Source: Kiritimatiellota bacterium (lineage in GTDB: Bacteria; Verrucomicrobiota; Kiritimatiellia; JAAZAB01). Taken from it: DNA of 5,636 nucleotides. The position numbers and the translations under genes are program-made. The stretch is from NCBI GenBank assembly GCA_008636095.1, contig VSJD01000340.1:1-5636 (forward strand). The letters run 5' to 3'. The first letter of the stretch is position 1; each line of letters opens with the position of its first letter. The notes below the pieces were generated by a model. That model worked only from the letters and a program-made list of their open reading frames with translations. It did no database searches and was not told the DNA's origin. This document shows positions 831-5,425 of this stretch, piece after piece.

Positions 831-1595
831 ATGAATATGACCCATACCCCTTCCCATGCCAGCGGTTATTTCGGCCTGGCACAGGCGGACGGCCTGTTGC
901 TGGTGGATAAACCCGCGCGGCTTACGTCGCACGACGTAGTGGATCGGATCCGCCGGCAGTTCCACTTCGAGAAGGTCGGCCATGCCGGCACGCTGGATCC
1001 CCAGGCTACCGGCCTGCTGATCCTAATGATTGGGCGCGCGACCAAGCTGGCCCATGCGCTGTTGGCCAGCGACAAAACATATGAAGGCACCTTGCGGCTT
1101 GGTATCGCCACGGACACCCAGGATGCCGACGGCCGCATCATCAGCGAGGCCGATTATAGCCACGTCACCCGCGAGCAGATGGAAACGGAGATCCGGAAGA
1201 TGACGGGCGATTTCATGCAAACGCCGCCCATGGTCTCCGCCGCCAAGAAAAACGGGGTACCGCTCTACAAGCTGGCGCGCCAGGGCAAAACCGTGGAACG
1301 TACGCCCAAACTGGTGCATGTTTACGAATTCGTCCTGCGTGATTTTACGCCGCCGCGGGCCACCTTTTTTCTGCGCTGTTCAAAGGGCTTTTATGTGCGC
1401 ACCCTGTGCGCCGATCTGGGCACGGCCTTCGGCTGTGGCGCACACCTGGAGCAGTTGCGCCGCACCCAGAGCGGTGAGTTCGACCTGTCCCAGGCCGCGC
1501 GCCTGGATGACCTTCTGCGCCTGGACCGGAACCAGCTCCTGGAAAAGCTCGTCCCGCTGACCCGCGTCAATCTGCAACCCGCGCACACCTCATGA
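831..1595 (+). CDS. truB: tRNA pseudouridine(55) synthase
   Basis: TruB isomerises U55 in the T-arm of elongator tRNAs to pseudouridine. The signature KVGHAGTLDPQATGLL spans residues 48-63, with the catalytic aspartate at D56. Other family blocks are DKPARLTSHDVV (26-37), KTYEGTLRLGIATDTQDADG (82-101, substrate-contacting Y85), TPPMVSAAKKNGVPLYKLAR (131-150), CSKGFYVRTLCADLG (183-197, with R190 as the conserved active-site arginine) and LRRTQSGEF (209-217). At 254 residues it lacks room for the C-terminal PUA domain found in the longer E. coli enzyme; shorter forms are common. The start codon could be ATG 831 or ATG 837, and neither has a Shine-Dalgarno sequence. The final four bases overlap ribF (ATGA), which suggests translational coupling. 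One small oddity is that the usual glycine in 'DKPxGxTS' is replaced, giving KPARLTS. Confidence 0.96.
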   Translation: MNMTHTPSHASGYFGLAQADGLLLVDKPARLTSHDVVDRIRRQFHFEKVGHAGTLDPQATGLLILMIGRATKLAHALLASDKTYEGTLRLGIATDTQDADGRIISEADYSHVTREQMETEIRKMTGDFMQTPPMVSAAKKNGVPLYKLARQGKTVERTPKLVHVYEFVLRDFTPPRATFFLRCSKGFYVRTLCADLGTAFGCGAHLEQLRRTQSGEFDLSQAARLDDLLRLDRNQLLEKLVPLTRVNLQPAHTS

Positions 1596-2632
1596 AACTG
1601 GGTTTTAAACTCGCATGCCTGCGTGGTCAGCGTCGCCCTGTTTTGCTGGCGGCCGGTTTTTTTGATGGTGTGCATCGGGGCCATCAGGCCATCATCCGGA
1701 AAATAGTCAGCGCCGCGCGCCGCGAACGGGGCGCGGCTTGGGTCATGACCTTTGATACGCACCCCCGCAAAGTCCTTTTCCCTTTGTCGGCCCCCCGGTT
1801 ATTGACTTCGACCCAACATAAGCTCAGATTATTGAAGGCCCTGGGCGTGCACGGGTGCATCGTAATTCCATTTACACGCTCGCTGGCCCGGCGGGAACCG
1901 AAGGCGTTCATCGCCATGCTGGCGCTGGCGGCCCCGGCGTTGCGTCAGATTGTGATCGGCCGGAACTGGACGTTCGGCCGGCAGGGATGCGGCACCCCGG
2001 CCATGCTAAAGGCCCTGGCGCCGGTTTATGGATTCAAGATCACGGTCATTCCTCCGGTGCGATGGCACGGCGCGGTGGTTTCCAGCACGCGGATTCGCGC
2101 CGCTGTGCTGGCCGGACGCCTGGCGGAAGCCGCCGGCATGCTGGGCCGTCCGTTCAATCTGCTGGGGACGGTTGTGCCCGGCCGCGGACTTGGCCGCAAG
2201 CTGGGCATTCCCACGGCCAATCTGAATCCACACAATGAAGTGACTCCTCCGGACGGCGTGTATATCGTCCGGGCACGCTGGGATGGCGTTGCCTATCCAG
2301 GGATTGTCAATCTGGGTGTCCGGCCGACGGTCACCTGGAAGAACGTTAAGCGGTGGACAGGACAATGGACGCCAGACGCCGGACGCCGGACGCCAGAAGT
2401 CAGAAGTCAGAACACGCTCGACGCTCAACGCTCAACGCTCCACGTGCTTCCTCCATCGCGCGTTCTTGAACTGCACCTCTTCGGCCTGCGCCGCAACCTG
2501 TACGGAAAAGCCATTGAAGTCACGTTCCTAAAGAAACTCCGCCGCGAGCGGGTCTTCCCATCCCTGGCGGCGCTCCAGCGCCAGATTCGGAAAGATATTG
2601 AAAAGGCAAAGGCGTGGTTCGAGCGGAAATAG
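1592..2632 (+). CDS. ribF: Bifunctional riboflavin kinase / FAD synthetase with an internal repeat-derived insert
   Basis: RibF phosphorylates riboflavin to FMN and then adenylates FMN to FAD in the cytoplasm. The N-terminal nucleotidyltransferase half shows GFFDGVHRGH (22-31), TFDTHPRKVL (53-62), VIGRNWTFG (121-129) and SSTRIR (164-169). The C-terminal kinase half shows GRGLGRKLGIPTANL (197-211), PPDGVYIVRA (219-228), GVRPT (242-246), then LELHLFG (292-298) with probable catalytic base E293, and LYGKAIEVTFLKKLR (303-317). Length is 346 residues against roughly 310 for the family. The excess lies between T246 and E293: 46 residues instead of about 8 in E. coli RibF. That insert is largely encoded by twelve in-phase 7-nt repeats, and its composition (TPDAGRRTPEVRSQNT) is unlike the rest of the protein. 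All catalytic motifs remain and the frame is intact, so the gene is probably functional. It starts within the truB stop codon. Confidence 0.95.
   Translation: MKLGFKLACLRGQRRPVLLAAGFFDGVHRGHQAIIRKIVSAARRERGAAWVMTFDTHPRKVLFPLSAPRLLTSTQHKLRLLKALGVHGCIVIPFTRSLARREPKAFIAMLALAAPALRQIVIGRNWTFGRQGCGTPAMLKALAPVYGFKITVIPPVRWHGAVVSSTRIRAAVLAGRLAEAAGMLGRPFNLLGTVVPGRGLGRKLGIPTANLNPHNEVTPPDGVYIVRARWDGVAYPGIVNLGVRPTVTWKNVKRWTGQWTPDAGRRTPEVRSQNTLDAQRSTLHVLPPSRVLELHLFGLRRNLYGKAIEVTFLKKLRRERVFPSLAALQRQIRKDIEKAKAWFERK
2361..2444 (+). repeat. Heptad tandem array inside the ribF coding sequence
   Basis: Twelve consecutive 7-mers run without a phase break: GACAATG, GACGCCA, GACGCCG, GACGCCG, GACGCCA, GAAGTCA, GAAGTCA, GAACACG, CTCGACG, CTCAACG, CTCAACG, CTCCACG. 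The total of 84 bases is divisible by both 3 and 7, so the ribF frame is kept. The array divides into blocks of near-identical units (GACGCCN, then GAAGTCA, then CTCNACG). It falls exactly where RibF proteins have a short variable turn between the GxRPT motif and the catalytic glutamate strand. Confidence 0.85.
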
Positions 2633-5339: not shown

Positions 5340-5425
5340 AGAATCAGGAATGGGAAAACTCCGAACATCCAACATCGAACACCCAACGCCGAATGCGAAC
5401 AAAGAACGAAGAACCATGAACTATA
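5335..5425 (+). repeat. Heptad array starting over the pnp stop codon
   Basis: The 7-mers AATGAAG, AATCAGG, AATGGGA run from 5335 to 5355, so the pnp TGA lies inside the first unit. After an eight-base step come AACATCC, AACATCG, AACACCC, AACGCCG (5364-5391), a six-base AATGCG, and then AACAAAG, AACGAAG, AACCATG, AACTATA (5398-5425). The last set shares AACAAAG and AACGAAG exactly with the array after ribF, which ties the two elements to one family. The series has no inverted arm. Confidence 0.75.

Follow-up and report, generated by a model that had tools for sequence, protein, structure and literature searches.

How does the riboflavin kinase domain of a core metabolic enzyme come to hold a run of 7-nt repeats between two of its conserved residues? 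This question is raised by a window of 5,636 nt (the whole stretch of DNA analysed here; positions 1 to 5,636 of contig VSJD01000340.1 in the Kiritimatiellota bacterium assembly GCA_008636095.1), in which domain and family profiles identify rbfA, truB, ribF, rpsO and pnp. We consider it probable that heptad DNA, of a type that this genus has in abundance, lies in frame in a turn of the RibF kinase domain, and that it is translated there, disordered, and tolerated rather than needed. In what follows, G000 is the source genome, G001-G004 are four other genomes of the same genus, and G006-G009 are genomes from outside the genus. The ribF gene is organized as follows.

1592..2632, + strand: ribF, bifunctional FAD synthetase/riboflavin kinase of 346 aa (Pfam, TIGR00083)
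2315..2329, + strand: GVRPT codons, residues 242-246, the conserved left anchor (98 homologs)
2333..2460 (about), + strand: lineage-variable insert (blastn breakpoints against G004, G003 and G001)
2361..2444, + strand: array of twelve 7-nt units in one register (unit split, Tandem Repeats Finder (TRF))
2368..2395, + strand: sub-array of four GACGCCR units (unit split)
2396..2409, + strand: sub-array of two GAAGTCA units (unit split)
2417..2444, + strand: sub-array of four CTCNACG units (unit split)
2468..2470, + strand: E293 codon, the right anchor (invariant in 98 homologs)

The ribF product passes the Pfam thresholds for FAD_syn (138.7 bits, cut-off 27, 1.9e-40) and Flavokinase (121.8 bits, cut-off 19.6, 2.5e-35) and reaches 227.3 bits on TIGR00083 against a cut-off of 184.35. 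The insert is flanked on both sides by residues that are invariant among the 98 homologs, namely G242, P245 and T246 on the left and E293 on the right. In a second, weak stretch of the alignment, E293 is paired with E268 of the FAD synthetase of C. ammoniagenes, and we take this position to be catalytic. The predicted RibF structure matches the fold of a solved FAD synthetase, and the insert falls in the riboflavin kinase domain, at a turn that joins two predicted strands. In the AlphaFold model the enzyme is of high confidence, while the loop is of low confidence, with a predicted local distance difference test score (pLDDT) below 50 at residues 267-284; the loop is therefore predicted to be disordered, as an earlier note on this DNA, made from the sequence alone, had proposed.

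The same note had counted 46 residues between GVRPT and E293, which the open reading frame (ORF) at 1592-2632 bears out, and had described twelve uninterrupted 7-nt repeats, 84 bases in all. The register is indeed unbroken, but the repeat is not one unit: the order in 2361-2444 is GACAATG, GACGCCR four times, GAAGTCA twice, GAACACG and CTCNACG four times, that is, three main kinds and two transitional ones, and TRF splits the same stretch into separate blocks. At lag 7, 60 of 77 positions match, giving a score of 41.4, compared with a maximum of 12.8 in 500 first-order Markov windows and with 17.8 for lag 14, the second best among lags 3-21. The stretch that is foreign to the relatives exceeds the array (about 2333-2460 versus 2361-2444), with blastn alignments to ribF of G004, G003 and G001 ending at 2334, 2332 and 2331 and restarting at 2462, 2461 and 2459, respectively.

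A protein search of 97 genomes gave a RibF match in 92 and none in G005, G013, G045, G046 and G084; 30 of the returned loci were read, including those of all four same-genus relatives. Protein homologs numbered 406 at E <= 1e-60 among 7994 scored candidates, and the best 120 of the 406 were examined. The 42 closest among the matches listed, P0001-P0042, are referred to as close orthologs, with P0001 being the query cluster; they were compared mostly at the protein level rather than in DNA. With identical anchors throughout, 44 residues follow GVRPTV in the query, 42 in G002, 41 in G004, 35 in G003 and 11 in G001. The loops of G002, G003 and G004 are coded by other repeat sequence at the same point, and an insert of comparable length was not seen in the remaining 25 of the 30 loci aligned. 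A short loop is found in G001, in G006-G009, in the class loci read and in proteins with LALPKERPxRV, and anchor-to-anchor distances outside the genus are mostly 9-17 residues, with a few of 29-35, among the matches listed. Of the 42 close orthologs, 40 retain both anchors; their loops range from 11 to 69 residues, and 11 of the 40 have only 11-12. Thus, the suggestion that a repeat had entered RibF at a tolerated turn holds, in that relatives lacking the insert and relatives with inserts of other 7-nt composition both occur, at exactly the same point.

The loop changes fast while the enzyme around it does not. In 600 ortholog pairs with core identity above 0.8, the core is on average 0.87 identical and the loop 0.08; in other words, the insert is not conserved at the protein level. 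For instance, P0004 and P0011 are identical at 246 of 246 residues to the left and 64 of 64 to the right, while their loops, of 43 and 28 residues, are unrelated. A tree of the 40 cores implies, as a rough count, 19 changes among five loop labels; this tree is weakly supported, with four of 36 inner branches starred and bootstrap unsettled. Constraining equal loop types to one clade was rejected by the approximately unbiased (AU) test for the CGLRI loops (p 0.0003) and for P0001 with P0010 (p 0.008), and was not rejected for P0002 with P0026 (p 0.077). Equal loop types in lineages that lie apart on the core tree thus fit repeated insertion or allele exchange. Of the 27 loops of at least 20 aa, all but one found a counterpart elsewhere in the DNA sampled from G000, G003 and G004 (26 of 27; tblastn, E <= 0.05). 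At this level the controls give matches too, for 10 of the 27 shuffled loops and for 2 and 6 of the 27 segments in two sets of core sequence, so that shuffling does not provide a clean background; with the cut-off at E <= 1e-3, the counts are 13 loops, one shuffled loop and no core segment in either set. Compared with open translations of intergenic arrays, the loops have a similar hydropathy (grand average of hydropathy -0.34 versus -0.64, standard deviation 1.36) and charge per residue (0.101 versus 0.095), and we see in these two properties no sign of selection on loop composition. The loop is likely a fast-changing filler and not a working part; the earlier note had called the array domesticated, and with no sign of function found, tolerated is the better word.

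Comparison with G002 adds an allele of a different kind, and three further features of the window are needed to describe it.

2370..2449, - strand: block homologous, in opposite orientation, to the array in ribF of G002 (70/80 identical, ungapped)
2337..2355, + strand: imperfect inverted repeat around the array, left arm (15/19 against 2433-2451, suggestive only)
2433..2451, - strand: right arm of the same imperfect inverted repeat (15/19 against 2337-2355)

The window aligns continuously with G002 on the plus strand from 1392 to 2628, and ribF is otherwise colinear, while 2370-2449 matches ribF of G002 on the minus strand (87.5%, E 1.5e-23, blastn). Aligned directly, the two arrays score 60 as reverse complements and 10 on the same strand, with 37 as the best of 35 control arrays. 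The two arrays are therefore one homologous block in opposite orientations. The G002 array aligns with that of G004 without a change of strand (score 54), which makes G000 the lineage that was probably turned. The homologous block is stop-free as read in each species; placed in the strand and phase of G002, the G000 block would acquire one TGA, and the G002 block placed in those of G000 one TAA, so that each allele carries changes that suit the strand on which it is read. That each orientation is open only as read suggests that both are translated, and conservation of the frame likewise makes translation of the loop likely. The arms match at 15 of 19 positions in G000 (shuffle P 0.0115). Among the loops of the 40 close orthologs, custom regular expressions found a motif like the left-arm peptide in 18, one like the right-arm peptide in six, and both in five. 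As a general feature of the inserts the arms were rejected, since at the DNA level they are found only in G000 among G000 and G002-G004.

The heptad DNA is not confined to ribF. In sampled DNA, period-7 arrays number 28.2 per 100 kb in G000, 7.5 in G003 and 17.2 in G004, rates that are biased upward because some stretches were picked for array matches, and other periods between 4 and 13 reach at most 2.1, with period 14 following 7. In stretches taken by contig number, there were 2 arrays in 40 kb, 15 in 220 kb and 8 in 151 kb (25 in 411 kb for the genus), whereas outside the genus we found 2 weak arrays in 48 kb of loci from the family and 4 in 128 kb of loci from the class, all four in one locus. 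Three-unit matches to a GACGNC pattern number 114 in G000 (67 in one orientation and 47 in the other), 49 in G001 (where the count comes with 17 control matches), 35 in G002, 46 in G003 and 112 in G004, compared with none in five genomes that belong to the family but to other genera; seven of the 87 remaining genomes have matches, at most 21. Genus specificity thus holds for the GACGNC unit and fails for period 7 as such. The genome with 21 matches (12 and 9), G068, belongs to another family of the class, in which the pattern could have arisen independently or arrived by transfer; its RibF fragment, which ends at the contig end, lacks the insert. In a class locus of G053 (L030), period-7 arrays of other units lie at 53-185 and 1335-1449, near an insert-free ribF.

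The repeat type had been described as otherwise intergenic, which proved incorrect: a custom codon model places 42 of the 148 arrays in the samples and the window inside predicted ORFs and 35 at ORF ends, as against 71 in intergenic DNA. The purine-rich strand is the coding strand in 23 of the 42, so that a strand filter on in-gene arrays was not seen. Eight of nine array-bearing ORFs scanned contain a Pfam domain and one does not; the domains are those of two M16 proteases, a glycogen debranching enzyme (GDE), a DEAD/Helicase_C_2 helicase (DinG-like), DNA polymerase III gamma/tau, GlnE, a PMT-family protein and a Mu-type portal. In the M16 protease, the GDE and the DinG-like helicase, all unrelated to RibF, the arrays are likewise in frame. 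The interdomain linker of the M16 protease is long and different in each of G000, G001, G003 and G004 and short in G006-G009, with only a distant match in G002; the helicase has three such sites in G000 (relative to fragments in G003 and to G008), and the GDE site has a short insert that varies within the genus. Split contigs mean that not all of these sites are comparable across the genomes. In the G000 helicase (L094:7599-10172), four arrays occupy the three insert sites, one of them just after TSATL, which we take to be a helicase motif. Prophage genes are reached too, the Mu-type portal gene of G004 (L114:12010-13776) containing three ACGCTCA-like arrays.

Within the window itself, the last rbfA codons (707-764) are heptad-like, with AGAATGC and AGGATTA units. 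Alignments to G004, G003 and G001 end at 706-707, at this tail, and the C-terminal tail of RbfA looks repeat-derived as well. Further 7-nt arrays lie at 2642-2704, in the ribF-rpsO spacer, and at 5357-5424, after pnp; much of that spacer is unaligned with G002, G003 and G001.

In the model that we suggest, heptad DNA would be generated and remodelled throughout these genomes and would enter genes at permissive turns and linkers. Its turnover would proceed by replication slippage, ectopic or allelic recombination and inversion, and selection would retain only those contents that stay open and in frame. The inverted heptad arms at the ends of the RibF insert (2337-2355 and 2433-2451) may have served as inversion substrates. 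Because inversion is length-neutral, the downstream frame is kept and only stops on the new strand have to be avoided.

Several alternatives bear on what the loop does and on how it arrived. That the variable loop is functional, with peptide swapping selected for kinase tuning or partner binding and the repeats as a device for variation, would fit the fact that 40 of 42 orthologs keep the two anchors in frame; we regard it as improbable, given that in hydropathy and charge the loops look like any open translation of an intergenic array, that arrays behave in the same way in unrelated genes and that 11 of 40 orthologs make do with 11-12 residues. A bolder version would make the RibF turn a diversification site, at which heptads with inverted arms swap or flip a loop of 30-60 residues beside the active site with the frame kept, so that random peptides are tested in essential enzymes, and at which slips of the array switch the kinase half off and on. 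P0036, a cluster of three sequences in which a frameshift after the array removes E293 and the kinase C-terminus and leaves the FAD synthetase half, is a hint in this direction; this cluster could be a phase-off variant, a pseudogene or a sequencing error. We hold the bolder version to be unlikely. A conserved lineage-specific loop, which the earlier note had named as the finding that would refute it, was rejected on the loop identity of 0.08 and on the matches of the loops to DNA elsewhere in the genus. For the same two reasons, and because inversion would destroy a conserved peptide, an ordinary lineage-specific loop that happens to have repetitive coding DNA is very improbable, even though loops of 29-35 residues, in which no heptad peptides were recognised, are present in P0048, P0049 and P0062, which do not belong to the genus.

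As for the two orientations, they could stem from two separate insertions of one source array instead of from an inversion in place. Arrays occur in both orientations across the genomes, as the counts for G000 illustrate, and P0001 and P0010, rejected as sisters on the core tree, both have the turned-round loop type. On the other hand, no comparable 80-bp match turned up among the scored candidates of five genomes or in 159 loci, and the identity of the block (87.5%) is close to that of the ribF flanks (91.6% and 92.1%), as if the block had stayed in the gene; two insertions are thus rather doubtful. A mobile palindromic element of the kind of the Rickettsia palindromic elements (RPE) or of miniature inverted-repeat transposable elements, moved by a transposase, would account for the imperfect terminal inverted repeat in G000 and for a 28-nt module with palindromic ends (CAGGGCG..GCCTGG) that is present in the RibF inserts of G002 (C258:3585-3612) and G004 (C88:14282-14309) and recurs in the genus. 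Yet element length, ends and peptide are not conserved among the loops, the inserts consist of degenerate 7-nt arrays built from several types of unit, and we give this explanation little credence. The module itself, six of whose 8 matches lie outside RibF inserts (4 of 9 genomes, up to one mismatch), was rejected as an abundant mobile element; at the two further places read it sits among heptads. Lastly, repeats are known to cause misassembly, and the named relatives are assembled metagenome bins, but the array is not as long as a typical short read, the query cluster consists of four sequences on four contigs, and in other assemblies, too, this codon is the site of in-frame inserts, so that a repeat-driven misassembly of ribF is most unlikely.

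A number of observations weigh against our reading of tolerated heptad DNA. The insertion step itself was not observed, and a donor for the 80-bp block was found neither in five genomes (40 candidates scored per genome; runner-up 41 bp, E 1.9e-9 versus 1.6e-22) nor in the 159 compared loci (1.39 Mb; next match 55.4 bits versus 100). The inverted arms are weak and are absent from the inserts of G002, G003 and G004 in the outer 50 nt compared, and the comparison of stops concerns one pair of alleles. Period 7 as such is not genus-specific, and the tblastn matches of the loops were counted whether or not the target is a repeat. The right anchor is absent from 2 of 42 orthologs, the frameshifted P0036 and P0038, so that the insert may sometimes be harmful or turn the kinase off. 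Finally, the named RibF relatives are metagenome-assembled genomes (Kiritimatiellaeota, Kiritimatiellae, Lentisphaerae and Verrucomicrobia).

If the reading of tolerated heptad DNA is correct, RibF provides a natural ortholog series in which a core metabolic enzyme apparently contains translated repeat DNA, and in which the alleles at one codon are variously short, filled, swapped or inverted. Such a series makes the origin of new protein segments from repetitive DNA testable, as well as the load of random peptide that a conserved fold accepts. It also warns against taking loops in such genomes for functional insertions before the DNA has been checked.

Tandem 7-nt arrays with length variation in a structured gene product are familiar from cyanobacteria, in the short tandemly repeated repetitive (STRR) heptanucleotide sequences and the heptads of the Nostoc tRNA-Leu intron; these lie in non-coding RNA or intergenic contexts. 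In the open-access literature, no work on heptad arrays inside Kiritimatiellota genes was found by title or start of abstract, which is no proof of absence. That repeat DNA can lie within genes is already known. RPE occur within unrelated metabolic genes, where they keep the frame and are tolerated by the proteins (PMC10969869), much as the arrays described here lie in frame in RibF, an M16 protease, GDE and a DinG-like helicase. However, RPE are about 150 bp long with a conserved peptide, whereas the RibF inserts are degenerate 7-nt arrays with a loop identity of 0.08 and lengths of 11-69 residues, have no whole-element palindrome (arms of 15/19 in G000 only) and are reversed in orientation at one site between species. 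In marine Beggiatoaceae and cyanobacteria, TAACTGA heptamers are abundant direct repeats, some of them in ORFs in a stop-free orientation, and 24 sets in or overlapping coding regions lie mostly at protein ends or in hypothetical proteins (PMC4679880). As in that system, 7-nt tandem units occur here at many places in the genome, but there the unit is fixed, while here GACGCCR, GAAGTCA and CTCNACG morph into one another inside a core enzyme domain, with turnover and inversion in an ortholog series. Geobacter metallireducens has a fixed element of four heptanucleotide repeats with the consensus GGACCGG, a predicted regulatory RNA, and its heptads also occur within genes; same-site turnover or inversion was not seen in the available part of its description (PMC2700814). 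The GGGAATC and GGGGAYT heptamers of Xanthomonas and Nostoc are genome-wide, variable in unit number, reported to form G-quadruplexes and under-represented in coding regions (PMC4692102), whereas the units here are others and many arrays are intragenic. To the extent that our searches cover the literature, the novelty of the RibF locus lies in a heptad array that morphs within a domain of a core enzyme and that exists, at a single site, in short, swapped and inverted alleles.
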